A DNA stretch of 20,363 nt from IMG/VR virus record IMGVR_UViG_3300047509_000063, positions 1 through 20,363 of that record; one strand, 5' to 3'. Positions 4,422 through 18,025 of this stretch are shown in pieces. The stretch is from a virus. Every line of letters starts with the position of its first letter. Position 1 is the first letter of the stretch. The notes under the pieces were generated by a model that worked only from the letters and a program-made list of their open reading frames with translations, did not search any database and was not told where the DNA came from. A program made the translations under genes and the position numbers.

Positions 4422-4792
4422 GCCAGATCGTCCGGGATCAGCGTCGGCTTGAGGATGAACTTGCCGATCGTCACTGTCGAAATATTGCCGGATGCGTCGA
4501 CCACTTCGCATTCGTGATAGAACGTGCCCGCGGTCTTGCCCTCGGTATCGACCGGATCGAGCGTGACGACGATCGTCGATCCGGCCGTTGAATTCTCGAT
4601 CGTGAGGCCCGATCCTGACGACTTCTTAACGTAGATGTCCTCGGTCGCCGTGGCGCTGACATTCTTGGCCATCCACCAGCGCGCAGCGGCGCCGCTGAGA
4701 TCGACCGACGCCCCCGTCTTGTCCAGCACAGGAATCCGAATCGTTGCGCTATCGCCAGCCCAATGGGTGACGTCCTGATTGATCGCTGGCAT
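4418..4792 (-). CDS. Ig-like/BppU-type small virion protein
   Basis: The 124-residue product begins MPAINQDVTHWAGDSATIRI. It has a pattern common to small phage adhesion domains: W..GDSATI, then PVLDKTGASVDLSGA, a short W-rich strand, and near the end GTFYHECEVVDASGN. This resembles the N-terminal domain of baseplate upper proteins and related beta sandwiches that link fibres to the tail. It lies between a W-rich small protein and the FII-like gene and shares a 4-nt overlap with the latter. Role is inferred from composition and position; no catalytic feature is visible. It could equally be a head decoration or collar protein. Confidence 0.5.
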   Translation of the reverse strand: MPAINQDVTHWAGDSATIRIPVLDKTGASVDLSGAAARWWMAKNVSATATEDIYVKKSSGSGLTIENSTAGSTIVVTLDPVDTEGKTAGTFYHECEVVDASGNISTVTIGKFILKPTLIPDDLA

Positions 4793-5012: not shown

Positions 5013-6176
5013 TCATGGCCCCCATGGCGAGCCGGTCGTGCCGAGCCCGGCCACCGTCACGTCGTTAACAGAATGCAGGTTCGCGTCGATCTCGCCCGTT
5101 TTGGTGAATGTCAGGCTGTCGGTTTTGGCCTTGATAGCGTTCACGGTGGCGGCATCCGGCAAGGTTGCAATCGCCGCTAATGTCGCATCGTCGGCGCCAG
5201 CAAGAGCCGTCGCTAGTTCAGCATTCGTCGGGAGATCGTCCACGCTCGTCTGCGTAGCTGCCGTCTTTGCCGCGTCATAGGCGATTGTCAGCGTCATGGC
5301 ATCGCCCGTCTGGGCCGCTGTCTGCGGGAGCGCCGCAATCGCTGCGAGCGTCGCGTCATCGGCACCGGCCAGAGCAGTCGCCAGTTCGGCGCTTGTTGGC
5401 AGCGCGTCGAGTTGCGTGTCGAGATTGGCAGAAGCCAGCCCGACCGAAGTCCGCACGCCGGCCGCGTCGAGTGGTGCGGTGTAGGATGACCCGGCCAATC
5501 TGGTCGATACCGCCACGTCAAGATTGCTTGCCGTTAGCCCGGTCACAGAGCCGACCGAGCCGGACAGGTTGCCGGTGATGTTTCCAGTGATGGCGACAGT
5601 CCACGCCGTAACAGCCGCAACCCCATCGGACGCCAGCTTAAACCCTGTCTTATCGCTCACCGTCACCGCAGGTGTTGCGGCGTTGAGGCTGGTTTTCATC
5701 GCCGCCGTGAAGTCGCCGGATGTCGGAGCGTTGGTCAGGTTGGTCGCCGTCGTGATCGTGCCTGCCGTAATATTGGTGGTGCTTGCAAGCGTGGTTGGGA
5801 ACGTCGCGGCCAGGAACCCAGATGGCTGCGAATAAGTCGCCATGCGGCTGGAAATCGCGGCATCGAGATTGGTAAACCCGCCGGTCGATGCACTGACCAC
5901 ATAAAACCGATCTCCGATATCATCGATCGTGGCCGCGGCTCCTCGCAGCGCGAGAATCCCGAGCGACGCGGTGTCCGTAGTATCCAGGGTGACCTTATAC
6001 CAGCCGCCTGAAATTTCCGTCGCGTTAGTCGCGCCAGCATTCGGATTGCCGAACGCGCCGCCGGCCTTCGATATCGTGATCGCAATGGTTTTTCCGGTCG
6101 CCTCGCTTACATGGTCCGACGATAGATAAGCCTTGAAAACGGCGACGAATGATGTCGATTGCGCAATTGAAAACAT
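5013..6176 (-). CDS. Tail fibre-like protein with internal repeats
   Basis: The 387-residue protein has an N-terminal beta domain (about 1-96), including ISGGWYKVTLDTTD and ending DRFYVVSA. Next come NLDAAISSR and NLDVAVSTR repeats (103-111, 218-226) flanking a Thr/Ala-rich shaft with GNITGNLSGSVGSVTG (198-213), a motif common in fibres. Two near-identical 25-residue units of the type LPT.AELATALAGADDATLA lie at about 259-283 and 315-340. The units are probably coiled-coil-forming and repeat with a 168-bp period in the DNA. The gene abuts the previous stop exactly. It probably forms a trimeric fibre or an anchor for the downstream adhesins. Which end contacts the virion is not known. No chaperone or peptidase motif is seen. 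Confidence 0.6.
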   Translation of the reverse strand: MFSIAQSTSFVAVFKAYLSSDHVSEATGKTIAITISKAGGAFGNPNAGATNATEISGGWYKVTLDTTDTASLGILALRGAAATIDDIGDRFYVVSASTGGFTNLDAAISSRMATYSQPSGFLAATFPTTLASTTNITAGTITTATNLTNAPTSGDFTAAMKTSLNAATPAVTVSDKTGFKLASDGVAAVTAWTVAITGNITGNLSGSVGSVTGLTASNLDVAVSTRLAGSSYTAPLDAAGVRTSVGLASANLDTQLDALPTSAELATALAGADDATLAAIAALPQTAAQTGDAMTLTIAYDAAKTAATQTSVDDLPTNAELATALAGADDATLAAIATLPDAATVNAIKAKTDSLTFTKTGEIDANLHSVNDVTVAGLGTTGSPWGP

Positions 6177-7022
6177 CTACATCCCCGCAAATGCGCGTGC
6201 GCGCGAGACACCACCGCCGCCACCCGGCGGATCGATGGTGATCCCGCTATTGTGCAGTAAGTCAAAACTGTTCGTCGCCGTCGGCGACCCCGTAAATGTC
6301 ATGTCACGGACGGCACACCAAGAAAGCGCTGAACTTGCCGCGGCGCCGACGGTGGCAACCGTGCCAAACGACGAAGACGCCAGCGTGATTTCGGAGCCCG
6401 AACTCCCCGCCCACGCCAGCGAATTGGAGACCGTAACGGTCCCCCCGGCAGGAAATTGAACGTAGTTCGGCGCGGTGATGTTGAGCGTGCCAATGGTGCA
6501 GGCCGCATTGATGAAACACACGCCCGCGCCGGAGCTAGCACCGAAACTCACGGCGCCGAACGTGTGCCCCGCTGCGCCGTTAAGAGACATTGTGCGGGTT
6601 CCGGTTGCTCCCGTAAAACTGATGGTCGCCGACGCCGCGCTGAGGGTCAACCCCGTCACGGTCGCGATATTGAAGGTCGCGGCGGTCGCCGACATGGTAT
6701 ATGTCGCCGAACCTAAATTGATTGTCCGCGTGCCCGAACCGCTCAGATTGAACGCGCTCCCGGTGGCCGAAACGGCGATGTTGTTATTATTGGCACTGTT
6801 GTCGAATGTGCCGGTGAATGCCCCCATGTTAAGCGACTGAATTGAAATCGTGCCGCCAAAGTTGACGGTAACGGTGCCTCCACCAGAACTGCCATCAAAC
6901 GTGACGGTGTCGGCAGAGCTGGGGACGGATTGGCCGCCTGCGCCATTGGAGGTCGCAGCCCAATGCGTGGTTGTGACGGCGTCCCACGCGCCTGTGCCGC
7001 CGACCCAGAATCTGGATGCCAT
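6177..7022 (-). CDS. Beta-rich WVGGTG-type virion adhesin
   Basis: The 281-residue product begins MASRFWVGGTGAWDAVTTTH. This N-terminus (F/RFWVGGTG.WD, later VPSSADTVTFDGSSG) recurs in putative phage and prophage tail proteins and in bacterial repeat proteins. The rest is a Ser/Thr/Gly/Ala-rich ladder of short strands (TINLGSATYTM, LTLSAASATISFTG, GTLNITAPNYVQFP), the kind of sequence that folds as a right-handed beta solenoid. Two Cys near residue 167-174 and one near 238 are present. It ends in a PPGGGGG linker and a short basic tail (SRARAFAGM), which could be an attachment peptide. The most likely role is a receptor-binding or fibre-associated protein. No enzymatic residues can be assigned. 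Confidence 0.55.
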   Translation of the reverse strand: MASRFWVGGTGAWDAVTTTHWAATSNGAGGQSVPSSADTVTFDGSSGGGTVTVNFGGTISIQSLNMGAFTGTFDNSANNNNIAVSATGSAFNLSGSGTRTINLGSATYTMSATAATFNIATVTGLTLSAASATISFTGATGTRTMSLNGAAGHTFGAVSFGASSGAGVCFINAACTIGTLNITAPNYVQFPAGGTVTVSNSLAWAGSSGSEITLASSSFGTVATVGAAASSALSWCAVRDMTFTGSPTATNSFDLLHNSGITIDPPGGGGGVSRARAFAGM

Positions 7023-7055: not shown

Positions 7056-7592
7056 TTAGGCGACGCGAACCTTGACCGCGCTGGCCGTGCGATACAGGCC
7101 ATTGACAGGTATGCCACCCGCTGAAGCGGTGGCGTCATCTGCAAAATCTTCGAGTCCACCATTGCCGATAATAATATGACCCGCGACCCCGGCACCGTTG
7201 GGCGCCCCGGCCCCTAATGTAAGGTTGCCGCCATTTCCTTCTGTCGTCGCACTTCCCGCTGCTATCTCGAAAGCGCCGCCAGAGCCGCTAGTAGCACCGC
7301 CATATCCTGCTGTGAGAAAGATGCCACCACCATTGCCGGTGTCGCCACCGTTGCCCCCGTCAAGATAAATGTGGCCGCCGTTGCCTGAGCCGTATCCGCT
7401 ACCACTATCAAGGTGCGCGGCTCCGCCGTCGCTATCACCACCAAGGGCATAACCTGCTAGTAATTTGGCGGCTCCCCCCGTCCCGCTCGTCGCCCCGCCT
7501 GCGCCAGCCGAAAGTACGATGGCTCCGCCAATATCAGTTGGCCCCGCCGCATCTGGGGCCGTTGCTACACTAAGATGAACTGTCTCGACCAT
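7056..7592 (-). CDS. Glycine-rich virion protein, probable fibre tip
   Basis: The 178-residue protein is dominated by Gly, with repeated cores of the form GG.I.L.AG.GG..SG.GG from residue about 22 to 145 (for example GGNGGDTGNGGGIFLTAG). Such runs may pack as polyglycine helices, as in some phage receptor-binding adhesins, or form a thin beta roll. The C-terminal 30 residues are different and end GGIPVNGLYRTASAVKVRVA, a closing motif I recognise from the ends of phage tail proteins. The gene starts 4 nt after the LamG-like fibre stop and is followed by the WVGGTG adhesin. The Gly-rich part may be the host-range-determining surface. Exact function is not established. Confidence 0.55.
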   Translation of the reverse strand: MVETVHLSVATAPDAAGPTDIGGAIVLSAGAGGATSGTGGAAKLLAGYALGGDSDGGAAHLDSGSGYGSGNGGHIYLDGGNGGDTGNGGGIFLTAGYGGATSGSGGAFEIAAGSATTEGNGGNLTLGAGAPNGAGVAGHIIIGNGGLEDFADDATASAGGIPVNGLYRTASAVKVRVA

Positions 7593-7596
7593 GGTT

Positions 7597-8457
7597 CTAA
7601 ACCTTTGCTAGGATGTAAGCGTCGTCGCCGTTCAGGATGTACGCGCCAGCGCCGTTGACGATGTATGCGTAGCCAGAGGGAGCGTCGGGGAGGGCATCGC
7701 CGGTCTGGCTCAGCACGCTCAGGCCGGTCGTCGATGGCAGCGCGTCGTAGATGGTGATGGATTGGAGGGCGTTAACCCCAGAACTTCCCAAATCAATCAA
7801 AGTCGCGACAAGGGGATTGCCTGCGGGGCGATCTGCATCTTCCAGTGTGAGCGCCTGGGCGTCGAAACCGTTTATGGTAAATTCAAATCGAGTGCCTGTC
7901 ACTGTGACGGCTACCGTATTTAGCGCTCCCGCAACACCAGAATTAACGCTGGTTGCAATGGTGGCAGAAGCCTCACCGTTATAACTTCCACCGTCTATCT
8001 GCTTCGATGAAGCATCAGCGTTTATATTTAAGCCATCATTGCCGTCAGCGGAGACCACCGCAAAAGATAGCGACCCGTCATAAGGGTCGGCCACCTCTTT
8101 GAATTGTATCGTGAGTGTGGCCGCGTCCAGTATTTTGGATCGCGCCGCACCTATAAGCCCGACGACGAGACCGTCTGTGCCCTCAAGATAACCATCAGCC
8201 GTAAGTTTGCTGGGATCGTATTCAGAAACAGCCCACCCATTCTCCGTATTCGCATCCGCGCCCAGCAGCGTGTCGATGGCGACATCGCCGTCGGCCTCGG
8301 TCCATGCGCGGTCGTTCACAAGGTCAATGTAAATCTTAGCGTTGGCGGGAACCCATTCAGGGGCGCTTGACCCACCTGCATCGACATGCTGGGAAGCCGT
8401 GACCGGCCGACCAAACCCAAACATAAGAAGTGGGCTCCGTTGGACCATGCTAGACAT
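7597..8457 (-). CDS. LamG/concanavalin-like tail fibre protein
   Basis: I start at the ATG at 8457, 8 nt inside the upstream gene and 6 nt after AAGGTG. A longer frame to 8676 adds 73 Arg-rich residues that are only the upstream gene read out of frame. The 286-residue product begins MSSMVQRSPLLMFGFG. Residues about 40-240 resemble a LamG/concanavalin jelly roll, as found in phage fibres that bind glycans: IYIDLVNDRAW near the start, LTIQFKEVADPYDGSLSFAV in the middle and LQSITIYDALP at the end. The C-terminus has an 8-residue tandem repeat (AYIVNGAG, AYILNGDD, AYILAKV at 264-286). It is the first fibre gene after the sugar-modification cassette. Sugar binding is inferred from fold resemblance only. 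Confidence 0.55.
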   Translation of the reverse strand: MSSMVQRSPLLMFGFGRPVTASQHVDAGGSSAPEWVPANAKIYIDLVNDRAWTEADGDVAIDTLLGADANTENGWAVSEYDPSKLTADGYLEGTDGLVVGLIGAARSKILDAATLTIQFKEVADPYDGSLSFAVVSADGNDGLNINADASSKQIDGGSYNGEASATIATSVNSGVAGALNTVAVTVTGTRFEFTINGFDAQALTLEDADRPAGNPLVATLIDLGSSGVNALQSITIYDALPSTTGLSVLSQTGDALPDAPSGYAYIVNGAGAYILNGDDAYILAKV

Positions 8458-8803
8458 CGTTCGCACCTTGCCCGAGCGATGCCTTGAGATCGTCGGCTTC
8501 GGCCTGGATGGCTTTTGCCATTTCAACGGTCTTGACCGCAGCCGCTTTGACGTCAGCAATGGCATTGCCTGCCTGCGTCTGCGCCGCCGCAATCTCGGCC
8601 TTAGCCGTCGCCAAATCCTGCTTGAATTTGTCGCCGAGAAAACTCGCGCCGGTGATGTTCCTTTTGATCGGATCATCTGAAAGCGTATTCGGAGGAAGCG
8701 TCATACTCTGCCCTTTTGGGTTTAGCTCGTGAATCGCCTTGTCCAGAAAGCGATCGAACTTTCCGGCCATCTCGATTGCGGCGGACTTCTGGTCCACCGT
8801 CAC
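8450..8803 (-). CDS. Small coiled-coil protein, 117 aa
   Basis: The start is a GTG at 8803 in a GTGA 4-nt overlap with the preceding 54-aa gene. The product has a helical N-terminal half (KFDRFLDKAIHELNPKG), a Pro/Thr linker and then a long Ala/Lys/Glu helix from about residue 58 (KFKQDLATAKAEIAAAQTQA) with clear coiled-coil character. No enzyme motif is present. Placed between the methyltransferases and the first fibre gene, it may be a fibre assembly or anchoring factor, or a scaffold for the modification enzymes. I do not recognise a family. Confidence 0.6.
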   Translation of the reverse strand: MTVDQKSAAIEMAGKFDRFLDKAIHELNPKGQSMTLPPNTLSDDPIKRNITGASFLGDKFKQDLATAKAEIAAAQTQAGNAIADVKAAAVKTVEMAKAIQAEADDLKASLGQGANDV

Positions 8804-8964
8804 GTAGGGCGGACCGCCAGCCGGTCAATCAGTGCATCAAAATCCGAACGTAGCTTTGCGACCTCGTCGAACAGCGCCGCTAAGTTGGCGTCTGTTGTGG
8901 CCGCGACCGCGCGAAACTGCTCAAAGTTGCAGGCATTTATATTGATCGGTTGACGTTCGATCAT
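8800..8964 (-). CDS. Small acidic protein, 54 aa, unknown
   Basis: A 54-residue frame fills the 160-nt interval between the methyltransferase and the coiled-coil gene. Its ATG shares one base with the methyltransferase stop (TGATG) and its stop forms a GTGA overlap with the next start. The product begins MIERQPININACNFEQFRAV and continues with a heptad-like helix (NLAALFDEVAKLRSDFDALI, about 27-46). The perfect junctions on both sides are strong evidence that it is translated. It might pair with the coiled-coil protein coded next to it. Family and function are unknown. Confidence 0.65.
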   Translation of the reverse strand: MIERQPININACNFEQFRAVAATTDANLAALFDEVAKLRSDFDALIDRLAVRPT

Positions 8965-9488
8965 CAGCAGCCCTCGCAGATAACGGTCTCGATACGGTTG
9001 AATGCATCGCCGATAATACGGCCATGGCCCTCGACGCCTTGCAGTTCAACGTGATCGCTGAGACCTGGATCGCACGGCTTCACGTCATCGAACCCAGCCA
9101 GATAGAGCGACACCGCCAGAAGCGAGGCGGTCCATGGTGCTTGATGGCCGTGACAGTTGAGCATCGCCCAGATTGCCCCACGCATGTCCGGCGTCTTCGT
9201 CCAACCATGGGACTGAACGAAACGAAAATAATCCTCACCACCTTTGCGCCAGATCCGCTCGATCGATGGCACCGCGATCCGGACAACACCGCCGGGCTTG
9301 AGCACCCGACGGCATTCCGTGAAGAACGCCAGCGCCTCATTATATTTGACGTGCTCGACCACATGCTCGGCGAGGATGAACTGCGCGCTGTCGTCGTCGA
9401 AGGGCAGCCGTTTTGTGATGTCAACGTCGTCGTCGTGGTTCAACCATCCGTCAATATAGTTGTTGCCGCACCCGAGATTGATCTTCAT
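8964..9488 (-). CDS. SAM-dependent class I methyltransferase
   Basis: I start at the ATG at 9488, in an ATGA overlap with the preceding gene, rather than a GTG two codons upstream. The 174-residue product shows a Rossmann methyltransferase: motif I INLGCGNNYIDGWLNHD (3-19), an acidic loop, LAEHVVEHV (39-47) and RVLKPGGVVRIAVPS (61-75). The last two are typical of Methyltransf_11/UbiE-type enzymes. It would methylate a small molecule or sugar using S-adenosylmethionine. Neighbouring glycosyltransferases and an FkbM enzyme make a sugar or a glycan-linked group the likely acceptor, but DNA or protein cannot be excluded from sequence. It is the sixth enzyme in the overlapping chain. Confidence 0.8.
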   Translation of the reverse strand: MKINLGCGNNYIDGWLNHDDDVDITKRLPFDDDSAQFILAEHVVEHVKYNEALAFFTECRRVLKPGGVVRIAVPSIERIWRKGGEDYFRFVQSHGWTKTPDMRGAIWAMLNCHGHQAPWTASLLAVSLYLAGFDDVKPCDPGLSDHVELQGVEGHGRIIGDAFNRIETVICEGC

Positions 9489-10192
9489 CGACACATGCCA
9501 ATTAGGTCACAGCGAACAAACAGCATGTTGCTACCAGCGAATGAATGCACCGCATAACCGCGTTCAGCCATAAGGGCGCGGAGTTCTGCGCAAACGTCAC
9601 CTTCGGCCTGCGGCGACACAGCCTCGGCGCAAATCACTTTCGGACCGCCGCGCTTGTAGTCAATGCTTCGCAGGATTATGGCGTCCATGCCCTCGGCGTC
9701 GATGCTCAACAGGTCTGGCCAGCATCCATCCGCGTACTTGTTCACTATCTCGTCGGCGGTCACCGCCGGAACCTCGACTGTGTCGCATATCTTGTGCCCC
9801 TGGATGGGCAGAAGCGAGTTGAGACCGCTGCTGGCCTCGTCAAGACGATTGAGCACCACAGTGCCTTGGTTTGGTGCGCCGACCACTGCCGCGCACACGT
9901 TGACGTCCTCGGGCCGGCGTTGCTTAAATTCCTCGATCAATGCGGGGTTGGCCTCGACATTGATGCCTCGGCTGCCACGCTGGTACAGCAGTGCCGTGTT
10001 GGACAGGTGAAATGGATGATGCGCGCCAATGTCGAGATAAGACGGCCGCGCGATGCGCAGGCACCCGAAAAGGTTGATAATCGCTAGATCATCGCCATGC
10101 TGCGCGTAGGTGCGCCCGCCATACCACTGATGCGGATGATCGAACATTCCCATGAGTGCAATGAATGCCTCCTGCATGTCCGGCTTCATCAT
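9485..10192 (-). CDS. FkbM-family methyltransferase
   Basis: The 235-residue protein carries the FkbM pattern: SYLDIGAHHPFHLSNT (51-66) as motif I, GINVEANPALIEEF (76-89) where the acidic residue binds the SAM ribose, and DLLSIDAEGMDAIILRSID (160-178). FkbM enzymes O-methylate hydroxyls of sugars, polyketides and glycans, and are frequent in exopolysaccharide and glycosylation loci. The gene starts with ATGATG, the first ATG overlapping the upstream stop by 4 nt. It runs between a GT-A-like glycosyltransferase and a second methyltransferase, so O-methylation of a sugar put on by the cassette is the natural inference. The acceptor is unknown. Confidence 0.85.
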   Translation of the reverse strand: MMKPDMQEAFIALMGMFDHPHQWYGGRTYAQHGDDLAIINLFGCLRIARPSYLDIGAHHPFHLSNTALLYQRGSRGINVEANPALIEEFKQRRPEDVNVCAAVVGAPNQGTVVLNRLDEASSGLNSLLPIQGHKICDTVEVPAVTADEIVNKYADGCWPDLLSIDAEGMDAIILRSIDYKRGGPKVICAEAVSPQAEGDVCAELRALMAERGYAVHSFAGSNMLFVRCDLIGMCR

Positions 10193-10869
10193 GCCGGCAC
10201 CATCGCGCTTACAACAAATGCGTCGTAAACCTCGGGCGTGGTGTGGCTAATCCAGTCGTACTCCTGCACGTTGGCCACGGTCAGAATATTCTTGTCATCG
10301 CGCATCGTCTTGATCGGCGCGACTTCCAGCGCATCGTCCTGACTGAGCATCTTGTAGACGACTGCCTCTGGCGTGTTCGGATACCTCTTCGACTCGCCAT
10401 CTTGCCAGTCGTAACGCTCGATAAAGCGACTGTCGCGAATGTACGGCACCGAGAAAAACATGATGCCGGTCTCCACCCACGCAAACTCCTTGAACTTGGT
10501 GCCGTTGACGCTGCAGACGAGTGACTCTAGGTTCTGCTTTTGCATGGTCTCGCAGAGCTTCATCACTGGTAGAAGCAGCAGACTGTCGCCCTCGATATGC
10601 ACCGCGTAGTCGTAGCCGTGGTCCACGGCGTACTTCAGGCCAGCGCAGAAGGCGCGGCCCCATCCGTCCCGCCCCTTGCGCGCGAGGTGCCCAATGTTGT
10701 TGCCGAGTTGCAGGACCGGAACGTCGTGGATCGCGAGAGGCGAGTTGGAGTCCACCAGCAGCAGGTCGCAATCCGGGTTGATGGCGCGGTGCAGTTTACC
10801 CCACAGCGCCGCTAGGCTGCGCTTCTCCTCAGTGTCGCAATACACCGTGCCGAAGATCAAAACCTTCAT
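10189..10869 (-). CDS. GT-A-like glycosyltransferase
   Basis: The start taken is the ATG at 10869 (ATGA overlap), not one four codons upstream. The 226-residue protein begins MKVLIFGTVYCDTEEKRSLA. It has the GT-A order of elements: a DSNSP loop (40-44), LQLGNNIGHLARKGRDGWGR (53-72) and AGLKYAVDHGYDYAVHIEGD (76-95). The EGDS at 93-96 takes the place of the metal-binding DXD. A C-terminal part with a conserved acidic loop (SQDDALE, 176-182) follows. Such enzymes transfer a sugar from a nucleotide donor to an acceptor. It lies between the radical SAM gene and the FkbM gene. Donor and acceptor cannot be read from the sequence, and assignment to a numbered family needs a profile search. Confidence 0.65.
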   Translation of the reverse strand: MKVLIFGTVYCDTEEKRSLAALWGKLHRAINPDCDLLLVDSNSPLAIHDVPVLQLGNNIGHLARKGRDGWGRAFCAGLKYAVDHGYDYAVHIEGDSLLLLPVMKLCETMQKQNLESLVCSVNGTKFKEFAWVETGIMFFSVPYIRDSRFIERYDWQDGESKRYPNTPEAVVYKMLSQDDALEVAPIKTMRDDKNILTVANVQEYDWISHTTPEVYDAFVVSAMVPA

Positions 10870-11705
10870 GCTGCCTTCCACGTCTGCTTGTTAGCTCCGA
10901 CGTCGTGCGGCTGCGCTCGCGCGCAGTTACGGCACAGCGACCCGCCCGAACCACCGAACTTCATGTTTTCGCTGTGCAGTTTGCTCATCGCCTGCGACGC
11001 GAACAGACCGTGGTAGTCATCGACCAGCAGATTGCCGAGCTTATGCTTCACTGAGTAGTCCATGCAGCACAGCACGACGTCTCCGTTCGGAAGCAACACG
11101 TTCTGGTCATAGAACGGCGTAAACGAGCACGTAACGGGCGTGCGGTGAACAGGTTCAAGGTCAATGGTCTGCCCCTCGATTGCCTGCAGATCGAGGTTGC
11201 CCGCCCGCGTCAGCGGATTCCACTTCATGTCGACCGAGCCTGCGACGCTGGTCTCGGCCATCGTCATGAACCGCGCGCCCCTGATCTTCTGAAAGATGGC
11301 GAGAGCCTGTCGGTAGTGCTCACTGTCCTTGAAGCCGCGCATGTTGCCCCGCGCATCGGGGAGATGCACCACGATCGCCTCGACCTGCGACGAGTGCAGC
11401 GTCAGCAAGTTGGCGACGCGCTCTGGATCGCGCATTCCTTGCAATGTGGTGTAAAGCGCGACGTTATAGCCATTCGTGAGAGCGTGATCGAGCATGTCGG
11501 TCGCGAAGCGGTTCGCCCACGGCTCGGACATGCCGGAAAAATCGATGCGGACATACGTCGGCAACTTCGCCACGATGACCATGAAGTTGCCGAGCGAGAG
11601 CGCCCGCACTGCGGCCTCCGGATAGTTGCTCACCAGTTTGTCCTGCGGGCAGAATGTGCACCGCATCGGACAGCCCATCATCGTTGTGATCTCAAGCGTA
11701 GGCAC
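10866..11705 (-). CDS. Radical SAM protein with SPASM-like C-terminus
   Basis: The 279-residue protein has the cluster motif C-x3-C-x2-C (C12, C16, C19, in MGCPMRCTFCP) at the N-terminus. The C-terminal cysteines (C193, C213, C214, C258, C261) sit in SPASM-like surroundings: LLPNGDVVLCCMDY (204-217), then LGNLLVDDYHGLF and SLCRNCARA. SPASM proteins hold extra iron-sulfur clusters and modify peptides, proteins or sugars; members in glycan loci are also known. It is short for the family (often 350-450). Its start directly follows the stop of a 74-aa gene and its stop overlaps the glycosyltransferase start. The substrate is not known. Options are a sugar modification, or a radical modification of the small neighbour or of a virion protein. 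Confidence 0.85.
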   Translation of the reverse strand: MPTLEITTMMGCPMRCTFCPQDKLVSNYPEAAVRALSLGNFMVIVAKLPTYVRIDFSGMSEPWANRFATDMLDHALTNGYNVALYTTLQGMRDPERVANLLTLHSSQVEAIVVHLPDARGNMRGFKDSEHYRQALAIFQKIRGARFMTMAETSVAGSVDMKWNPLTRAGNLDLQAIEGQTIDLEPVHRTPVTCSFTPFYDQNVLLPNGDVVLCCMDYSVKHKLGNLLVDDYHGLFASQAMSKLHSENMKFGGSGGSLCRNCARAQPHDVGANKQTWKAA

Positions 11706-11930
11706 CTACGTCGCCTCCGAACATTCGGGCGCGCGTTCCCATTTGGTGCTTATGTCCGGCTCCGTATCTTGGACCGCGAATTCACACAACTCTCCCCATC
11801 CCCGAATAAAGTTTTGCCTGAAGGCTTCGAATGTCGGATATGCCTTCGTCCATTGGCCGTCATAGACCATTGGAACGAACGCGCAATTTTCATTCGGAAA
11901 CCTAATCCAGAGTGTTTTCGGCTCACTCAT
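11706..11930 (-). CDS. Small hypothetical protein, 74 aa, next to the radical SAM gene
   Basis: I choose the ATG at 11930, which overlaps the GT9-like stop by 8 nt, over a longer frame to 11978 whose extra residues are shadow sequence. The 74-residue product begins MSEPKTLWIRFPNENCAFVP and is aromatic-rich (W, Y and F throughout), with cysteines at 16, 49 and 70. It ends directly before the radical SAM start. It looks like a small folded domain rather than a typical leader-plus-core precursor peptide, since no Gly-rich core or double-Gly cleavage site is visible. A role as a partner or substrate of the radical SAM protein is only suggested by its position. Family unknown. Confidence 0.55.
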   Translation of the reverse strand: MSEPKTLWIRFPNENCAFVPMVYDGQWTKAYPTFEAFRQNFIRGWGELCEFAVQDTEPDISTKWERAPECSEAT

Positions 11931-12870
11931 GACGCTGCTCGTGTTCAACGAATTTCTGGAGCTTCTGCAATGCCGCATGAACGTCGATAGTCTTGTCGCA
12001 CTCGTGCGTCTTTGTCGGCTTCATGAGTCCGGACCTGACGTGGAAGTAGTGTCCCGCGTGGCACTCGCACGGATTGGCCGGCTCAATCGCCAGCGTCGGC
12101 GCGAGGTGAGATCCAACGCTGTTGGTAGTTTTGAACCCCTCATGCCCGCCATAGACGATCACCGTCGGCGTTCCGACTGACTGCGCGAGAACAGGGGCGA
12201 ACCCTGCACAGGTGAAGGCAAGGTCAGCCTCCGCATAGAGACCCGCCAATTCCTCAAATGCCAGTTCACCGCGGTGAAATTTGGTGTCCGCGGGCATCTC
12301 CTGCCCGGCGATATGCTCCCCGTTGTCGCCGAGATTGGCGACGCTCACGACGTGGTAGCTGTCGCGAATGCTCTCGAATAAGGTCGCATAGGTCTTGATG
12401 TCTGGAAGCCGTGGCTCGCAGTGAAACAGGTTATTCAACACGGTCGGCCTATAGACCATTAGCGGCTTACTGATTGCACCGATCTTCCGACGCGCCATTT
12501 GGCGCCACTGGTCAGGAACCGGGAGGCTGAAGTCTGGCCTCGCCGGCATGGGTAGACCGACGCATGAATATTGAGCAGCCAATATGCTCCCATGCTTTCG
12601 GATCAGTTCGGCGTTGTAGCTCATGCGCAAGTAGTTCGCCCCGCCCGGAATGTTGGCGCCGGCACTTGGGAACTTTGCATACTCGCGAATTCGTGGCGGA
12701 TGATGGCTCGCCACGGACTGTATCTGCAATCCGTCGGCCATCAGATCCTGGTAGAGCGCACAGTAGAATGTCTCCAGGACTACCGGCTCACCGCTCGCCA
12801 TCAACGTCCGCATGATCGCGCGCTGGTGAATGCAGTCTCCGAGTCCGAGGTGACCGCGGACGACAATCAT
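11923..12870 (-). CDS. Glycosyltransferase family 9-like protein
   Basis: The 315-residue protein has a GT-B layout like that of ADP-heptose transferases: an N-terminal loop RGHLGLGDCIHQRAIMRTL (5-23), a middle LMVYRPT strand (137-143) and a donor-binding half with FEELAGLYAEADLAFTCAGF (205-224) and GTPTVIVYGGHEGF (233-246). The N-terminal part would bind the acceptor sugar and the C-terminal part the nucleotide sugar. The C-terminal end carries C268, C270 and C291 with nearby His residues, a possible metal or structural site. It starts with a 4-nt overlap with the DUF115-like gene. GT9-like enzymes in phages may modify host lipopolysaccharide or the virion. Specificity cannot be read. Confidence 0.75.
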   Translation of the reverse strand: MIVVRGHLGLGDCIHQRAIMRTLMASGEPVVLETFYCALYQDLMADGLQIQSVASHHPPRIREYAKFPSAGANIPGGANYLRMSYNAELIRKHGSILAAQYSCVGLPMPARPDFSLPVPDQWRQMARRKIGAISKPLMVYRPTVLNNLFHCEPRLPDIKTYATLFESIRDSYHVVSVANLGDNGEHIAGQEMPADTKFHRGELAFEELAGLYAEADLAFTCAGFAPVLAQSVGTPTVIVYGGHEGFKTTNSVGSHLAPTLAIEPANPCECHAGHYFHVRSGLMKPTKTHECDKTIDVHAALQKLQKFVEHEQRHE

Positions 12871-13514
12871 ATCACGTCCTTGAGTTCGACAATCGGCCAG
12901 AAGGGAATTTTGCTGCCCGGCGACGCGTTCAGTAGTTCAACCCCGAGCATCCTAAGCGGAGCAACGGTGCCAGCGAGTTCGTCACGTTGTCGGCCCCAAA
13001 TATCAGCCACCGGACCCCAGGGATGGGGCTGGTGATGATGCGTCCGACCGGATGAATCCGGACCGCCGTCAAGTCCTAGCGTCACGATCCGCTTGACGCC
13101 GAGGTGGCAAAGCAGATTGATCGCGCCGCGCACCGAGGTATGCCGCAGAAAAACCTTCGAAGGATCACCCGACAACCCGTCAGGCGTTTCGCTCGGCCGA
13201 GGCCGGCGCAGAAACTGCACATAACTGCAATGGACATCGCCATGGCTGGCACTGATGACGCGGCCGGCAAAGGCTTTCACCGCGGCGCGGTTGTTCATTT
13301 CCCACCGCTCGTCAGCGTAAAATAATATATCGGCGAACGGCACGCTATAGAGCGACGAGTTGACAACGACCGTGCGACGGCCCCGCAGCAACTCGGGGTC
13401 AACGGCAGTAAAGGAAGGGCCACCGCAGATCAGGAAGGCGTCCTCGCCTTCCCAATCTTGGGTGATAGAAACAAACCCACCGCCCCTTGGGGCGGCGGGT
13501 ACGGGCGAGAGCAT
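12867..13514 (-). CDS. DUF115 / MptE-like protein
   Basis: The 215-residue product has the pattern AFLICGGPSF (26-35), VVVNSSLYSVPFADILFYAD (49-68), a helix-strand pair RGAINLLCHLGVKRIVTLGLDG (129-150) and NASPGSKIPFWPI (196-208). This matches the DUF115/MptE-like family. In bacteria the DUF115 fold occurs in motility accessory factors that act in flagellin glycosylation, and family members occur in phages. The start shares one base with the capsid stop (TAATG), and no other in-frame start precedes the conserved part. Residues 4-13 are Pro/Gly/Arg-rich because their codons form a strong hairpin. Role inferred: sugar transfer or nucleotide-sugar handling at the head of the cassette. Confidence 0.7.
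   Translation of the reverse strand: MLSPVPAAPRGGGFVSITQDWEGEDAFLICGGPSFTAVDPELLRGRRTVVVNSSLYSVPFADILFYADERWEMNNRAAVKAFAGRVISASHGDVHCSYVQFLRRPRPSETPDGLSGDPSKVFLRHTSVRGAINLLCHLGVKRIVTLGLDGGPDSSGRTHHHQPHPWGPVADIWGRQRDELAGTVAPLRMLGVELLNASPGSKIPFWPIVELKDVI
13465..13500 (-). terminator. Intrinsic-terminator-like hairpin just after the capsid gene
   Basis: On the minus strand, bases 13500-13489 pair with 13486-13475: a 12-bp, nearly all G/C stem with one G-U pair and a 2-nt AA loop. It is followed by TTGTTTCTA (13474-13466), a fair U-tract. The stem begins 13 nt after the capsid stop codon. It lies inside the first 13 codons of the DUF115-like gene, so it is either a leaky terminator or an attenuator. 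Structure is read by eye; no energy was computed. Confidence 0.5.
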
Positions 13515-14566
13515 TAGGCGATCGCCGCCTTATACAGCGCACTCGGCATGGTGCAGACGGCGAGCGGGTAGGAATACATCTCCACGTCGGCATACATGTT
13601 GCGCTGCAAATCAGGGACCACCCAGGAATAGGCTTCCTGGCCGGGAGTGTCGACAAAATCGAAGCGCTCGTCGGCTGGCGCATAGCACATCTGAAAGATG
13701 CCAGCGCCGACCGGAAATATCTTGCACTTCTTGTCAGCGATCGCGACAGTCGAATTGTCATCCGTGCCGCGATAGTTGCTAAAGAGAATGCCGCCATACA
13801 TAACATCACGCCACGCCGTCGGCTGTTCACGCAACGCCTGTGCAGCTTGCCAGTTCAGATACGTCGCGCGGACCTCCTTGGAGGATGTCAGCTTGTCAAA
13901 GAAACTGTCCGAGCAGATCGCTTGAATCCTGACGCCGTTTCCGCCGAGACCCTTCAAGGCGCGAAGGATGGAACGAATGGCGGTTTGACACGCGCCAGCC
14001 GTTGACCCGTCATCCGTTGTGTTGGACATTGTCCACGTCACTTCGTTCGGGATGCTCTGATTGAACGCCGTAGACGCGGTCCAGTCATAGATCGTGGTCC
14101 CGTCAGCATCGGTGGTGATACCCTGCACCGCGCCTAGCATCATATTTTCCCACGTCAGAGCAATGTCGTTCTGCATAAGATATTGCAGACGCTGAACCAT
14201 CATTTCCATTGACTGCACCTCGGTCACCGATCCGAAGGCGCGGATGCCGGCAATCGTGGCCGCCATCAGGCGCTTGGATTTAGCAAGGCGCGGAATGGTG
14301 AACGGTCGGACATCGCGCGTCTTCTCATCCGTGCGACCTTCGGCAGGCGGAGAACCGCGATCCGACGTCTGAACCAGCGCGGGTGCGTTGAGGCGGGTTT
14401 CGATCATGATATTCTTGGTCGTGGGCTGACCAAGGGGCGGCGGCACAAAAAGGCCGGGAAGCGAGCGCAAGAACGTCGGGGTAAACCCCTCCTTGTCGAT
14501 GCCGGCGGTAAGATTCTGGGCAGCGAAGGCGTCTTGATTAAAGACGTCCATAGTCAAATTGGCCAT
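13514..14566 (-). CDS. Major capsid protein (lambda gpE family)
   Basis: The 350-residue protein is the HK97-fold shell subunit. It begins MANLTMDVFNQDAFAAQNLT and has the family's features: GFTPTFLRSLPGLF near the N-terminus, the extended E-loop region with IMIETRLNAPAL (53-64), then DVRPFTIPRLAKS, a long helix, and the beta-rich peripheral domain ending SYPLAVCTMPSALYKAA. Size equals lambda gpE (341) closely. GGAG lies 8 nt before the ATG. It follows the decoration gene, as in lambda. A 202-nt leader with hairpins precedes it and a terminator-like hairpin follows it, which fits very high expression. No lysine cross-linking or N-terminal delta domain is evident, consistent with a decoration-stabilised shell. 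Confidence 0.9.
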   Translation of the reverse strand: MANLTMDVFNQDAFAAQNLTAGIDKEGFTPTFLRSLPGLFVPPPLGQPTTKNIMIETRLNAPALVQTSDRGSPPAEGRTDEKTRDVRPFTIPRLAKSKRLMAATIAGIRAFGSVTEVQSMEMMVQRLQYLMQNDIALTWENMMLGAVQGITTDADGTTIYDWTASTAFNQSIPNEVTWTMSNTTDDGSTAGACQTAIRSILRALKGLGGNGVRIQAICSDSFFDKLTSSKEVRATYLNWQAAQALREQPTAWRDVMYGGILFSNYRGTDDNSTVAIADKKCKIFPVGAGIFQMCYAPADERFDFVDTPGQEAYSWVVPDLQRNMYADVEMYSYPLAVCTMPSALYKAAIA

Positions 14567-14768
14567 TGTAGTTTCTCCATTTGATGATGCGACGTCATCT
14601 CGACGTTGCGTTTTGAACGGTCCGACGCTCCACGCGCGGATTTGCGAACGGACGCTTCAAAGAGCGCTCGTCATTTCAGGTTCTAGGCTTGAAAGGTGGG
14701 ACGCTTTCCGTCTAAGGGCTCCGACGCTTCACAGCGTTGGCATCCGCCCGTCCCGTGGCGAGATTGGA
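14567..14768 (-). promoter_or_regulatory. Capsid gene leader with four AGCGTC copies and hairpins
   Basis: This 202-nt non-coding gap has GACGCT on the plus strand (AGCGTC on the minus strand) at 14624, 14651, 14700 and 14723. Hairpins are possible at about 14721-14740 (stem of CGCT/AGCG type, GTGA loop on the minus strand), 14650-14670 and 14590-14610. Only tiny frames (MPTL, MTSAL) begin and end here. GGAG precedes the capsid ATG at 8 nt. No convincing sigma-70 promoter was found. A structured or protein-bound leader is the most economical reading. Confidence 0.45.
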
Positions 14769-15152
14769 TTAAGATCGAACTTTGATCCCGGCGGCCAGGA
14801 GTTCGGTATTTTTGGTGACGGTATAAGCGCCGGCAGTCACCGTCGAATCATAGATCAGCGCGTTGCCATCGACTTCGCAGCCACCAGTGACAACAGTCGC
14901 GAGGACATCGCCATCGCTAGGATCGCAATCGTCGAAAAGAATTGCGACGCCGGTCTGCGAACCGTCCGCGCCGGAGTGTGGCGAAATGACATACTTGCCG
15001 CCAGACGTGAGCTTGCCGAGAACGGTCCCTGCGAGAAGAGGAACGGCGCCGGTGAAGCCGCCGTAAATAGTGACCTGATCGCGCGAGTACCGGCCATTGC
15101 TCTCGCTCTGGATGAAACTGCCAGCGCGGAGGTGGTTAGTCAAAACAGTCAT
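14769..15152 (-). CDS. Head decoration protein (lambda gpD family)
   Basis: The 127-residue protein begins MTVLTNHLRAGSFIQSESNG. It shows the gpD-type beta-rich pattern: YSRDQVTIYGG, then AGTVLGKLTSGGKY, GVAILFDDCDPSDGD, and near the end ALIYDSTVTAGAYT. Size is close to lambda gpD (110). It binds as trimers at the threefold sites of the expanded capsid and stabilises it against DNA pressure. It lies directly upstream of the capsid gene, as in lambda. The Shine-Dalgarno context (GGAG, 8 nt, ATG) is almost the same as that of the capsid gene. Two cysteines in the second half (C76, C93) are unusual for this family. Confidence 0.85.
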   Translation of the reverse strand: MTVLTNHLRAGSFIQSESNGRYSRDQVTIYGGFTGAVPLLAGTVLGKLTSGGKYVISPHSGADGSQTGVAILFDDCDPSDGDVLATVVTGGCEVDGNALIYDSTVTAGAYTVTKNTELLAAGIKVRS

Positions 15153-15212: not shown

Positions 15213-15638
15213 TTACTTCCGCCCGATGCCCATTTCGGCCTTCACCCGCGCCTGCAGGGACTTCCACTCAGCGAGAGGAGCCTCAGTCGTATGCGGCCTG
15301 GTGTGGCGGGTCGTCATTTCATCCGACGCCGTGACGCGGTCGGACTGCAAAGCAGTGACCACTTCGCTTAGGGTCTTTCCTTCGGAGATGAAGGCGCTGG
15401 ACTTTTCAGGCTTGCCAACCAACTGGCAGGCAGCGTGAATGTCGGCGGCGCGTTGACGCTCCACCTTCACGGCCTCGGCAACGTTGCCTTCAGCCGTTAC
15501 CTTTTCGGCCGCGGCTTTCTCGGCAAGAGCTTTGTCAGCAATCGCCTTGCCGGCTTCCGCCTTTGCGGCGACAGCAGTCTCAGCAACGATCTTCTCAGCA
15601 GCGAGCTTGTCAGCCGCCGCCTTCTCTGCGTCCGTCAT
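15213..15638 (-). CDS. Nested scaffolding protein (internal start in the protease gene)
   Basis: An in-frame ATG at 15638 (residue 223 of the protease) is preceded at 6 nt by GAGGAG at 15650-15645, the best Shine-Dalgarno in the head module. Translation there would give 141 residues starting MTDAEKAAADKLAAEKIVAE, an Ala/Lys/Glu-rich coiled coil, and a basic C-terminal segment (SLQARVKAEMGIGRK). This copies lambda, in which scaffold Nu3 is the C-terminal part of protease gene C from an internal start. Such proteins shape the procapsid through their basic C-terminus binding the capsid protein, and are then removed. Separate expression is inferred from the ribosome site. Confidence 0.6.
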   Translation of the reverse strand: MTDAEKAAADKLAAEKIVAETAVAAKAEAGKAIADKALAEKAAAEKVTAEGNVAEAVKVERQRAADIHAACQLVGKPEKSSAFISEGKTLSEVVTALQSDRVTASDEMTTRHTRPHTTEAPLAEWKSLQARVKAEMGIGRK

Positions 15639-16304
15639 GGAAATCTCCTCATGTTGACGGTTGGGGTTGGCGGCGGTTTCCGCCGTTGCTCCGGGATGTT
15701 TCCACCCGCGGGATTTGGCCAGCGCAACCATCCGTTCCGGTGCGTGCTGGTAAATTCGATAATCGAACGCCGTCGGCTCGATGGACTTCGTCTTGTCCGT
15801 CTCGTCAGCGTAACCCTTCAAGACCGCTTCATTTGCGGTCATCCAGATTTCCGACTTCATCTCCTCGCGAATGTCTGCCGCGGGACGTCCTGTTTTCTCG
15901 GCGTAGATGTCCGCCATAGACGTCGCCATGGTTTCAAGCATTTCCACGCTCTTGGTGTGGTCTTGCGAATTGCCCATGGTGAAAGCTGCGGGGTCATGGA
16001 CCATCATCACGGCGCCTGTGCTCATGACGACCGTGGACCCGGCCATCGCGATAACGGACGCGGCTGAGGCCGCAATCGATTCCACGATGATGGTGACGTC
16101 TCCCTTGTGGGAGTCGAACGCATTGAAGATCGCGACGCCTTCGGCAGCGATGCCGCCGCCGGAATTGATGCGAACAGTAACGTCCTTGTTCCGGCCAATC
16201 GTGGCGAGCGCCTCGACCACGTCGAGGTACGTAAAGCCATCTTCGAACAAGCCGAGGCCGACCGTGCCCGAAAGCACGATCTCGCCATTCTTGATGATGT
16301 CCAT
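15213..16304 (-). CDS. Head maturation protease, ClpP/S49-like, fused to a scaffold domain
   Basis: The 363-residue protein has a ClpP-fold serine protease (about 1-190). It includes VRINSGGGIAAEGVAIFNAF (44-63), VESIAASAASVIAMAG (74-89) with S80 aligning to the ClpP nucleophile, and MMVHDP (100-105) with H103 as the base. The third residue, usually Asp before the WMTANEA stretch, is not obvious; S151/E152 stand there. From about 223 on the chain is an Ala/Lys/Glu-rich coiled coil like a scaffold. The enzyme would cut itself and the scaffold in the procapsid. It starts 2 nt after the portal stop with GGAAG upstream. It lies between portal and decoration genes, the position of lambda gene C. 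Confidence 0.85.
   Translation of the reverse strand: MDIIKNGEIVLSGTVGLGLFEDGFTYLDVVEALATIGRNKDVTVRINSGGGIAAEGVAIFNAFDSHKGDVTIIVESIAASAASVIAMAGSTVVMSTGAVMMVHDPAAFTMGNSQDHTKSVEMLETMATSMADIYAEKTGRPAADIREEMKSEIWMTANEAVLKGYADETDKTKSIEPTAFDYRIYQHAPERMVALAKSRGWKHPGATAETAANPNRQHEEISMTDAEKAAADKLAAEKIVAETAVAAKAEAGKAIADKALAEKAAAEKVTAEGNVAEAVKVERQRAADIHAACQLVGKPEKSSAFISEGKTLSEVVTALQSDRVTASDEMTTRHTRPHTTEAPLAEWKSLQARVKAEMGIGRK
15645..15650 (-). promoter_or_regulatory. Strong internal Shine-Dalgarno GAGGAG in the protease gene
   Basis: GAGGAG on the minus strand, 6 nt from an in-frame ATG (15638). It is within coding sequence (residues QHEEIS), and it marks the likely start of a separate scaffold protein. 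Confidence 0.6.
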
Positions 16305-16306
16305 GT

Positions 16307-17803
16307 TTATTCTTCCGGTGGGTCGATCGTCGGAAAGTCGCTGTCCGCGGGTCGGGCTTGCGTTACACCGGCGCGGCTGACCTGACCGGCGTCGCTATCG
16401 AACACAATGCCGGCGGCATCGGCTCTCTTCTTGTCTGCAATAATTCGGGCGTCAGTCTCAAACGGATCTTCGCCCATTTCTTCGATGACGTCAGAACGCG
16501 ACTTGAACCCGGCGCGAACCGAAAGCAGTTCCGCCTGCAAATCCTTCAATGGGTCAATCCATTCCCACTGTGGCGGCTTCCAATTCACGCGCAGGATGTC
16601 GCGCTTGTTCTTCTCAAAGTCCGCTGGCGATACAGCGATGGCGCGGTGCAACACCGCATCAGACACCCAGCGATTCCATATTGGTCGGCAGAACTGATAG
16701 ACCATCACCGAATGCTGTATGGCCTCGATCCGTCTCCGAAACTCAATGAGGCCGGCGCGAATAGAGCCATAGCTTGTCTGTCTCAAGTCGCCGGTCATCG
16801 CCGCGTATGGCACGCCGAACCCAGCAGCAACCTTCAGAAGTTGTCGGTAAAGAAACGCTTCATAATTCCCGCCAACATCGGCGGGCTCTGAGAACTTCAC
16901 ATCCTCTCCAGGTTCAAGGTCGATCGTTGCGCCCGGCTCAAGCGCCATGGCCGGAACGTCGCCAATAGTCTCGGCACTGCCGAGCGGGTGCGTGGGGTCT
17001 TCCGGAACAGGACGGGTGACAAACGCGGTGAACAATGCCGCGATCCGTTTGCGCTCAAGTTCTGCATCTTCGTATTGATCGAGGACCGCGAGCGTGACGA
17101 TTGCCGATATGGTATGCGGGAGTCCGCGGAGTTGCCCGGCGCGCATCGGCTTGTAGAGGTGCAGAACTTGTTCCGCCGGCACCACAGTTTTCAACCCCGC
17201 CGCGTTATAATAGGGCAGGTCTGTATTTGGCATCTGCCGCCAGAAATGATAGCTGACCCGCCGACCGATCTGGTCTAATTCGATGCCGCTCTCAATATGA
17301 TTCCCGTTCGGAAGAATGCTGTTGTGCTCAAGGGCCAGCATCTCCGCAGGAAGTAACTGCAACTGCATCGGCACCAAAAGTCCGTCTTGCGGAAGACGTG
17401 GCCTGATGCGGATAAAACACTCGCCGGCCTCAAACATCTCTGCAGCAACAAGGGCCTGCAAACCGTAGAAGTCGGTCAGCCAGTCGGCGTCCGCTTCGTC
17501 CGTCCAGTCCCGCCATGCGAGTTCGAGCGAATCCTTCACGCTCTTGTCCGTCGAAAGTGACGACGGCTTGATGCCGCAGCCAACCAGCGCAGAAACGAAA
17601 GTTTCTTTTGCGCAAGCGGCGTGCGGGTTGTTCGCCGTAAGATGACGCGATCGCGCAAGAACAGACTTCCCGTACCGCCTGATCTGCGAATTGATCGCCG
17701 AAGCGGTAGTCGGAACGGAACGCAGCCGACGGCCGTTCTTGCCAGCGTCGAATGCAAGCACCTTCGGAGCCGTACTCGACGGGTTCTTTTTGCCTACAGG
17801 CAT
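16307..17803 (-). CDS. Portal protein (lambda gpB family)
   Basis: The 498-residue protein belongs to the lambda-type portal family. It has a basic N-terminus, RRYGKSVLARSRHLTANNPH (42-61) that begins the core, FYGLQALVAAEMFEAGECF (112-130), RAGQLRGLPHTISAI (221-235), LEPGEDVKFSEP (296-307) and the hallmark TGDLRQTSYGSIRAGL (337-352). The C-terminal part with NWKPPQWEWIDPLKDLQAE is also typical. Twelve copies form the ring at one capsid vertex through which DNA is packaged. Length is close to lambda gpB (533). The gene abuts the gpW-like stop exactly. Residues from about 470 on are low complexity, as expected for a flexible end. Confidence 0.9.
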   Translation of the reverse strand: MPVGKKNPSSTAPKVLAFDAGKNGRRLRSVPTTASAINSQIRRYGKSVLARSRHLTANNPHAACAKETFVSALVGCGIKPSSLSTDKSVKDSLELAWRDWTDEADADWLTDFYGLQALVAAEMFEAGECFIRIRPRLPQDGLLVPMQLQLLPAEMLALEHNSILPNGNHIESGIELDQIGRRVSYHFWRQMPNTDLPYYNAAGLKTVVPAEQVLHLYKPMRAGQLRGLPHTISAIVTLAVLDQYEDAELERKRIAALFTAFVTRPVPEDPTHPLGSAETIGDVPAMALEPGATIDLEPGEDVKFSEPADVGGNYEAFLYRQLLKVAAGFGVPYAAMTGDLRQTSYGSIRAGLIEFRRRIEAIQHSVMVYQFCRPIWNRWVSDAVLHRAIAVSPADFEKNKRDILRVNWKPPQWEWIDPLKDLQAELLSVRAGFKSRSDVIEEMGEDPFETDARIIADKKRADAAGIVFDSDAGQVSRAGVTQARPADSDFPTIDPPEE

Positions 17804-18025
17804 TCAGAGGCCCTTGCAGGACTGATAGAGGTACTTCGGGCCGCGACTTGCAGTCGATCCCAACAACTCAGCGACTTCCCCTTGAAGGGTTGCAATCGCC
17901 GTAATCACTTCACTCATGCTGCGATAGTCCACGCGCTGCGTATCGTTGCGCAGCGACGCCACGCCGGAATCGCGGATCTTTATCAGCGCCGCGAGGCGTG
18001 TTTGCTTGTCAGTCAATTCGCTCAT
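17804..18025 (-). CDS. Head-to-tail joining protein (gpW-like)
   Basis: I take the ATG at 18025, overlapping the terminase stop by 4 nt (ATGA), rather than a TTG three codons upstream. The 73-residue protein begins MSELTDKQTRLAALIKIRDS. It follows the gpW pattern: a helix with basic face, a turn with RNDTQRVDYRSM (beta pair) and a second helix SEVITAIATLQGEV, ending in a basic tail (SRGPKYLYQSCKGL). gpW (68 residues in lambda) sits under the portal and is needed to retain DNA and attach the tail. It has exactly the lambda position between terminase and portal. The long acidic or hydrophobic C-terminus seen in some relatives is absent. Confidence 0.8.
   Translation of the reverse strand: MSELTDKQTRLAALIKIRDSGVASLRNDTQRVDYRSMSEVITAIATLQGEVAELLGSTASRGPKYLYQSCKGL

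Follow-up and report, generated by a model that had tools for sequence, protein, structure and literature searches.

A phage cassette of putative glycan enzymes, mobile between head and tail genes and sometimes fused into a single protein, as a candidate virion-glycosylation module

The linear IMG/VR fragment IMGVR_UViG_3300047509_000063 (20,363 bases, analysed over its full length and called here the window) carries, directly behind its major capsid gene, a run of genes for putative glycosyltransferases, methyltransferases and a radical SAM enzyme. In related phages the same slot holds little: one or a few small genes in AmM-1 and Cy-LDV1, and three open reading frames (ORFs) in 1.3 kb in L002. 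Why would a phage keep such a set of enzymes among its virion genes, and what would they modify? An earlier note, made from the letters of the window, had pointed to the usually small size of this slot, rightly for these relatives, and had proposed that the cassette builds an O-methylated sugar and attaches it to capsid or fibre proteins. On the evidence presented here, we consider it likely that the cassette is a phage-encoded soluble module for glycosylating virion surface proteins in the cytoplasm. This reading is favoured because the enzymes occur fused to one another, are placed with virion genes, include a virus-associated GT-A family and have no transmembrane segments. The capsid gene and the region behind it are laid out as follows (lengths in amino acids, aa; E, expectation value):

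13514..14566, minus strand: major capsid protein, lambda gpE type, 350 aa, the anchor of the slot (Phage_cap_E, E 6.5e-59)
13475..13500, minus strand: terminator-like hairpin inside the 5' end of the DUF115 gene, 11 pairs (9 G-C), fold z-score -2.6
12867..13514, minus strand: DUF115/MptE-like, GT42-like putative glycosyltransferase, 215 aa (phrog_4603 'alpha-2,3-sialyltransferase', 2.6e-21)
11923..12870, minus strand: GT9-like (ADP-heptosyltransferase-like) putative glycosyltransferase, 315 aa, with a C-terminal Cys/His finger-like motif (phrog_6804, of unknown function, 9e-22)
11706..11978, minus strand: small ORF of 90 aa, overlapping the end of the GT9 gene by 56 bases
10866..11705, minus strand: radical SAM/SPASM (twitch-like) enzyme, 279 aa, with CxxxCxxC and C-terminal cluster cysteines (PF13186, 8.7e-7)
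10189..10881, minus strand: GT-A-fold glycosyltransferase, 230 aa, with an EGDS acidic motif (by structural model)
9485..10192, minus strand: FkbM-family methyltransferase, 235 aa (PF05050, 1.3e-13; TIGR01444, 1.8e-11)
8964..9494, minus strand: Methyltransf_11-type SAM methyltransferase, 176 aa (PF08241, 2.1e-9)
8800..8964, minus strand: small ORF of 54 aa, function unassigned, with no credible match in the hidden Markov model (HMM) libraries
8450..8803, minus strand: protein of 117 aa, 30% identical (E 7e-4) to a 118-aa ORF in the short slot of L002

Every gene listed in the earlier note is present on the minus strand as an open frame, and both order and positions agree with the note; the cassette does overlap the capsid stop, by the one base shared with the start of the DUF115-like gene. 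Adjacent cassette genes touch or overlap by 1-56 bases, and the cassette is an operon running with the structural genes; co-expression with the virion genes therefore follows, as had been claimed. This claim needs a qualification as to level, since the strongest coding-strand hairpin in our terminator scan (13500-13475) lies just 3' of the capsid stop and may lower expression of the cassette relative to the capsid, as a possible attenuator. Terminator-like sites are in total no more numerous in the region than chance would give, and conservation of the hairpin was not clearly seen in relatives, L003 having a strong but different one. As for the smaller genes, the 90-aa ORF has no family match in the HMM libraries and no homologue among the related loci, and the 117-aa protein, judging from its counterpart in L002, is probably an ancestral component of the slot and not a member of the cassette.

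Could these enzymes have come together by chance? When viral contigs were searched with an alignment of the GT-A protein, 46 loci were obtained, which with the window and earlier loci amount to 48 distinct contigs (about 44 without near-identical copies). GT9 and Methyltransf_11 are each present in 41 of the 48, DUF115 in 17, FkbM in 11 and the radical SAM enzyme in 10; because of this last count, we place the radical SAM enzyme outside the strict core. GT9, GT-A and the methyltransferase form a single ORF in 35 of the 48 contigs, and in six (L264, L266, L268, L269, L270 and L275) one ORF of 918-987 aa has the composition DUF115-GT9-GTA-MT11. The separate proteins of the window align along these six ORFs in the order DUF115, GT9, GT-A and methyltransferase, at 32-59% identity (54-59% for the Methyltransf_11 protein against the C-terminal domain), and 393 alignment columns are invariant across the six. 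Domain fusion of this kind is strong evidence that the enzymes share one pathway, and the cassette is, by these comparisons, not a chance assembly.

The placement of the cassette in relatives points in the same direction, namely towards the virion genes. E-type capsid genes on one side and head-closure or neck genes on the other flank it in the window and in L265, L266, L269 and L270, and in at least three of the six contigs with the four-domain ORF (L266, L269 and L270) this ORF stands between the E-type capsid and head-closure genes. The map of L269 runs from the capsid (7384-8409) through the four-domain enzyme (8414-11260), FkbM (11364-12125) and head closure (12127-12501) to neck and tail tube, a fused version of the window's layout. 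L097 is a phage with a phrog_617 capsid; here DUF115, a fused GT9-GTA-MT11 protein and the radical SAM enzyme lie between the head-connector genes Ad1 and Hc1. L096 carries the same GT-A sequence as L097 and likewise has Hc1 as the next gene. The sister phage (one contig, listed both as L093 and as L002, with a capsid 82% identical to that of the window) keeps DUF115 alone behind its capsid gene, and has the other five enzymes behind tail-fibre-like genes in the order GT9, GT-A, radical SAM, FkbM and MT11 (the radical SAM and GT-A genes having changed places compared with the window). Several of the genes that precede the fused enzyme in L276-L303 have matches to tail-fibre and head-decoration families. 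The cassette thus looks like a mobile module moving between head and tail slots. A search for the same gene order in prophages had been proposed; the cassette recurs in several phage lineages among head or tail genes. That the glycan cassette is tied to virion genes is therefore borne out by the fusions and by the recurrent placement; the capsid as the specific target of the sugar is not shown by either.

Which member of the cassette keeps closest to the capsid gene? The DUF115-type gene is no more than about 450 bp away from it in at least 12 phages of the gpE family, and the genes that follow vary (sulfotransferase, deacetylase-like, epimerase, FkbM, GT8-like). Thus the slot of L025 has a weak PIG-L deacetylase match and a methyltransferase, that of L040 has FkbM and a sulfotransferase, that of L038 a GT8-like gene and that of L062 a GT9. 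From these gene neighbourhoods, the capsid slot is a hot spot where glycan genes vary around a constant DUF115. Further arrangements of this gene were also observed: a slot in L023 (11063-17666) with a different glycan kit behind DUF115 (sulfotransferase, B12-binding radical SAM, methyltransferase and NAD-dependent epimerase), two DUF115 copies within one capsid slot in L040 (7939-12288), a tandem DUF115 double domain in a single ORF in L025 (11266-13299), and, in the Henriciella prophages L216, L218, L219 and L220, a DUF115 homologue about 4-5 kb upstream of the capsid gene and not behind it. The family label given by the earlier note needs a correction. PF01973 (MptE-like, the old DUF115) misses the window protein and gives weak matches in 6 of 13 family members (best E 5e-4); the labels SPASM, FkbM and Methyltransf_11 pass the Pfam cut-offs. 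Residues W21, G32, P33, D68, W71 and D149 are invariant in the DUF115-like proteins, and an AlphaFold model (mean confidence, pLDDT, 83) pairs with the sialyltransferases Cst-I and Cst-II (prob 0.97-1.00, E 8e-3 or worse), for which the sequence profile gives E 0.21-0.59.

If virion proteins are glycosylated, which of them would be the substrate? The neighbourhood of the cassette bears on this question, and its remaining genes are:

18022-19962, minus strand: large terminase
16307-17803, minus strand: portal
15213-16304, minus strand: head protease
14769-15152, minus strand: decoration protein
about 4.8-8.4 kb, minus strand: Gly- or Ser/Thr-rich proteins without family assignment, 3' of the cassette
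6177..7022, minus strand: Ser/Thr-rich (28%) protein, candidate substrate (99.7th percentile of Ser/Thr content among 648 genes of related loci)
5013..6176, minus strand: Ser/Thr-rich (25%) protein, candidate substrate (99.2nd percentile among the same genes)
4095-4511, minus strand: weak head-closure candidate (E 0.024; L002 homologue in register)
2949-3488, minus strand: major tail protein

All the structural genes are on the minus strand, the head-closure and neck genes occupy about 4095-4511 and below, and the relatives of the capsid protein are found mostly in Alphaproteobacterial genomes. The genes after the cassette had been taken for fibre genes; they code instead for Gly- or Ser/Thr-rich proteins that are not recognisable as fibres. 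One protein of this stretch (7056-7592, 178 aa) is Gly-rich (27.5%) and low in charge, and has no relative among the loci.

Ser/Thr-rich proteins flank the block both in the window (5013-7022) and in the sister phage. Among the related loci, no homologue of either candidate substrate was found, the Ser/Thr-rich proteins of L093 showed no homology to those of the window, and the proteins f283 and f387 had no match in GenBank phages. Fibre proteins tend towards Ser/Thr richness, and because of this the flanking proteins are suggestive only. It is possible, with somewhat less than an even chance in our estimate, that tail-fibre or decoration proteins are glycosylated and the capsid is not; this is a sub-case of virion-protein glycosylation, and the confidences in the two overlap. 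The block relocations, which place it behind tail-fibre or decoration-like genes in the sister phage and in L276-L303, favour fibres or decorations as the target, as do the Ser/Thr-rich neighbours in both arrangements. The capsid is favoured by the constant place of DUF115, which remains capsid-adjacent when the block moves, and by the fusion of DUF115 to the other domains in six phages; in several of these the fused gene comes immediately after the capsid gene.

The GT9-like protein raises the question of the sugar. It is homologous to orf12 of Pseudomonas phage D3 and its relatives, and has no Pfam match (PF01075 included); a profile of 11 relatives gives, as its sole sensible match in the PDB, the ADP-heptose:LPS (lipopolysaccharide) heptosyltransferase II 1psw, a weak one (E 0.001). 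A C-terminal C-x-C...C..K motif is present in 40 of 49 members of the family, vs 6 of 1664 other ORFs. Two of the cassettes have genes of the heptose pathway with them, namely a heptose-7-phosphate kinase (3.1e-76) and an ADP-heptose 6-epimerase (2e-67) in L276 and an HddA-like kinase (2.2e-37) in L100. None of the three reaches its curated equivalog cut-off, and the names therefore hold at family level. The stretch of L276 after the fused glycosyltransferase (11921-15115) also holds a methyltransferase-like protein. Together with the kinship of the GT9, these genes suggest heptose as one of the sugars; the window has no such gene, and its cassette would draw on the ADP-heptose of the host. 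The finger-like motif of the GT9 family recalls, without matching it, the cysteine metal finger of TibC/AAH (BAHT), a bacterial autotransporter heptosyltransferase that uses ADP-heptose on protein (PMC4358343). The iron finger of TibC has four cysteines (339, 342, 358 and 370), unlike the C-x-C-H...H-x-C of the window protein, with three cysteines, histidines and another spacing. As a rather doubtful extension, which we hold tentatively, a widespread, virus-only single polypeptide (GT42-like initiator, heptosyltransferase-like GT9, GT-A and methyltransferase), whose gene immediately follows that of the capsid, might put an O-methylated, heptose-containing glycan on the capsid, being here split into genes and joined by a radical SAM step.

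The same enzymes could act on the surface of the host. GT9 is the family of LPS-core heptosyltransferases, heptose-supply genes lie near some cassettes, and serotype-changing phage glycosyltransferases are known (PMC12619734), so that the cassette might alter LPS or capsule in infection or lysogeny, for instance to exclude other phages. We regard this as unlikely. The cassette overlaps the capsid gene and runs with the structural operon, and its placement among head or tail genes is repeated across lineages. By hydropathy, no cassette protein has a transmembrane segment, and the cassette has no flippase, GtrA-like ORF or other membrane protein, unlike lipid-linked LPS systems. The distribution of the GT-A family also speaks against it. 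In 397 genomes of the order to which the host of one prophage relative belongs, the family was not found (0/397), and 398 genomes of the phylum gave three partial matches, all weak; in phage records its profile reaches E of about 1e-115. The family is virus-associated in its distribution, and the host LPS pathway, which the earlier note had named as the finding to set against its own proposal, did not emerge in this order.

The GT-A assignment itself comes from structure. The protein has no significant match in any HMM library and none in GenBank phages, but its model (pLDDT 80.5) has 202 PDB hits at E<=1e-3 (e.g. TarP, ArnC, GtrB and WrtF), the top 50 being nearly all GT-A transferases, which upholds the name it had been given. 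The FkbM protein scores 51.9 bits with PF05050 (cut-off 22.7) and 44.6 bits with TIGR01444 (cut-off 37.7), and O-methylation by FkbM and Methyltransf_11 is plausible from these family memberships.

What would a radical SAM enzyme do in such a pathway? It matches SPASM (PF13186) with 29.6 bits (cut-off 21.5) and Radical_SAM with 16.1 bits, below the cut-off of 29.5, and its cysteines C12, C16, C19, C193, C213, C214, C258 and C261 are invariant in eight relatives. A three-member profile matches BtrN in the PDB over the C-terminal half (3.7e-6); a narrower, eight-member profile finds nothing there at E<=0.01. More than 360 viral relatives were found, many next to GT10, GT2 and FkbM-like genes. 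In about 50 aquatic phage contigs (L101-L172), the homologues occur with GT10 fucosyltransferase-like, GT2, Anp1-like and weak FkbM-like genes, and make up a second family of such cassettes in phages, larger than the first. In cyanophage DSL-LC02 (L011:6660-8813), the homologue is the C-terminal part of an ORF annotated as FkbM methyltransferase, with a glycosyltransferase adjoining and tail-fibre genes on the flanks. In the archaeal virus vir524 (L010, Methanomicrobiales), a radical SAM/SPASM homologue (8989-9729) lies in the head module with, by annotation only, no recognised glycosyltransferase adjoining.

SPASM/twitch enzymes are, as is generally known, often peptide-directed, and the vir524 gene would fit an enzyme that modifies a virion polypeptide directly, in the manner of ribosomally synthesised and post-translationally modified peptides, with the sugars secondary. 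We think this quite improbable: the closest structural relative found, BtrN, is an aminocyclitol dehydrogenase, most relatives accompany glycosyltransferases and FkbM-like genes, and the DSL-LC02 homologue is itself part of an FkbM-annotated ORF between tail-fibre genes. Very improbable indeed is a hypermodification of phage DNA bases with sugars. GT9 and FkbM families are generally known to act on glycans or small molecules, the cassette is located with virion genes, and no thymidylate-synthase-type or TGT-type enzyme was found in seven phage contigs (possibly incomplete), including the block-bearing sister phage, L099 and L100. In its favour are a weak, sub-threshold match of the radical SAM enzyme to the QueE family and the existence of DNA-decorating phage glycosyltransferases (Pyle 2024, as cited in PMC12619734).

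Returning to the glycosylation of virion surface proteins, the most likely pathway may be outlined. The DUF115-type (GT42-like) transferase would act early, the GT9-like transferase would add a sugar, which may be heptose drawn from the ADP-heptose of the host, and the GT-A transferase would add a further one. FkbM and Methyltransf_11 would then O-methylate the product, and the radical SAM/SPASM enzyme would oxidise or rearrange one sugar. The glycan would be put directly on Ser/Thr of virion surface proteins (capsid, downstream Ser/Thr-rich proteins or fibres), in the cytoplasm, before or during virion assembly. What we infer here is the order of action, which sugars are donated and how they are linked, which protein receives them, what the radical SAM enzyme does and how the phage benefits. 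Several points weigh against it. Capsid adjacency is not required, since the block is found outside the capsid slot in some phages; the radical SAM enzyme is in 10 of the 48 contigs only; the Cst-like fold match of the DUF115-type protein is moderate (Foldseek TM score 0.50, E 8e-3); and the BtrN match is obtained with the broader profile alone. Additionally, the roughly 50 aquatic phages carry their radical SAM relatives and other glycan genes near DNA-metabolism genes and not near virion genes. Finally, a cryo-electron microscopy (cryo-EM) paper on the D3 capsid does not mention glycosylation (PMC12749128), although D3 has DUF115, GT9 and methyltransferase genes; glycans that are flexible or minor may be missed by this technique, and the authors may not have been looking for them.

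If this outline is true, phages of environmental bacteria carry their own enzymes for capsid or fibre glycosylation as a mobile module, sometimes as one four-domain protein beside the capsid gene, and this one capsid-adjacent gene would offer a simple handle on the roles of virion sugars (adsorption, protection or masking). Phage virion glycosylation is already known. Searches of open-licence PubMed Central (PMC) text turned up no account of these enzymes as a set, of their moving between head and tail slots or of a four-domain protein encoded behind the capsid; the set and the fusion look new. In the same text, no paper was found that brings together radical SAM, FkbM, phage and glycosyltransferase; FkbM methyltransferase with glycosyltransferase, virion and phage led only to papers that, judging by title and abstract, concern an algal virus and haloarchaeal plasmids; and no published glycan function was found for the cassette genes of the D3 group.

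Among known systems, this Pseudomonas group (D3 orf7, orf12 and orf13; PAJU2 gp10-12; Psp6 48-50) encodes a DUF115/'sialyltransferase', a GT9-like protein and a methyltransferase in the stretch from capsid to tail genes. Homology to the window extends to the DUF115-type and GT9-like proteins, and the GT9s have the Cys motif in common, whereas the slot is without GT-A, FkbM and radical SAM, and the methyltransferase is of another type. In the giant phages of Caulobacter and Brevundimonas (CcrSC gp516 and neighbours), a DUF115 homologue lies directly after the tail genes, followed in CcrSC by several unknown proteins and a methyltransferase, with gp511 weakly similar to GT9; they differ in that no GT-A homologue was found in GenBank phages. 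In mycobacteriophages (Che8 gp110, Corndog gp38 and Myrna), phage glycosyltransferases glycosylate capsid and tail-tube proteins (Freeman 2023, cited in PMC12363180); these systems are described through individual glycosyltransferases, and the text read reports no set of DUF115, GT9, FkbM and radical SAM and no fusion. A virion-glycosylating cassette would widen a phenomenon shown, in the literature reached, mainly for these phages. Lastly, chlorovirus PBCV-1 has multidomain enzymes, A064R (two transferases and a methyltransferase) and A111/114R, for an O-methylated glycan on its capsid protein (PMC7826918). This is a eukaryotic virus with N-glycans and rhamnose, so that the likeness is one of analogy only; if our reading is true, the cassette described here would be the bacterial-virus counterpart of chlorovirus capsid glycosylation.

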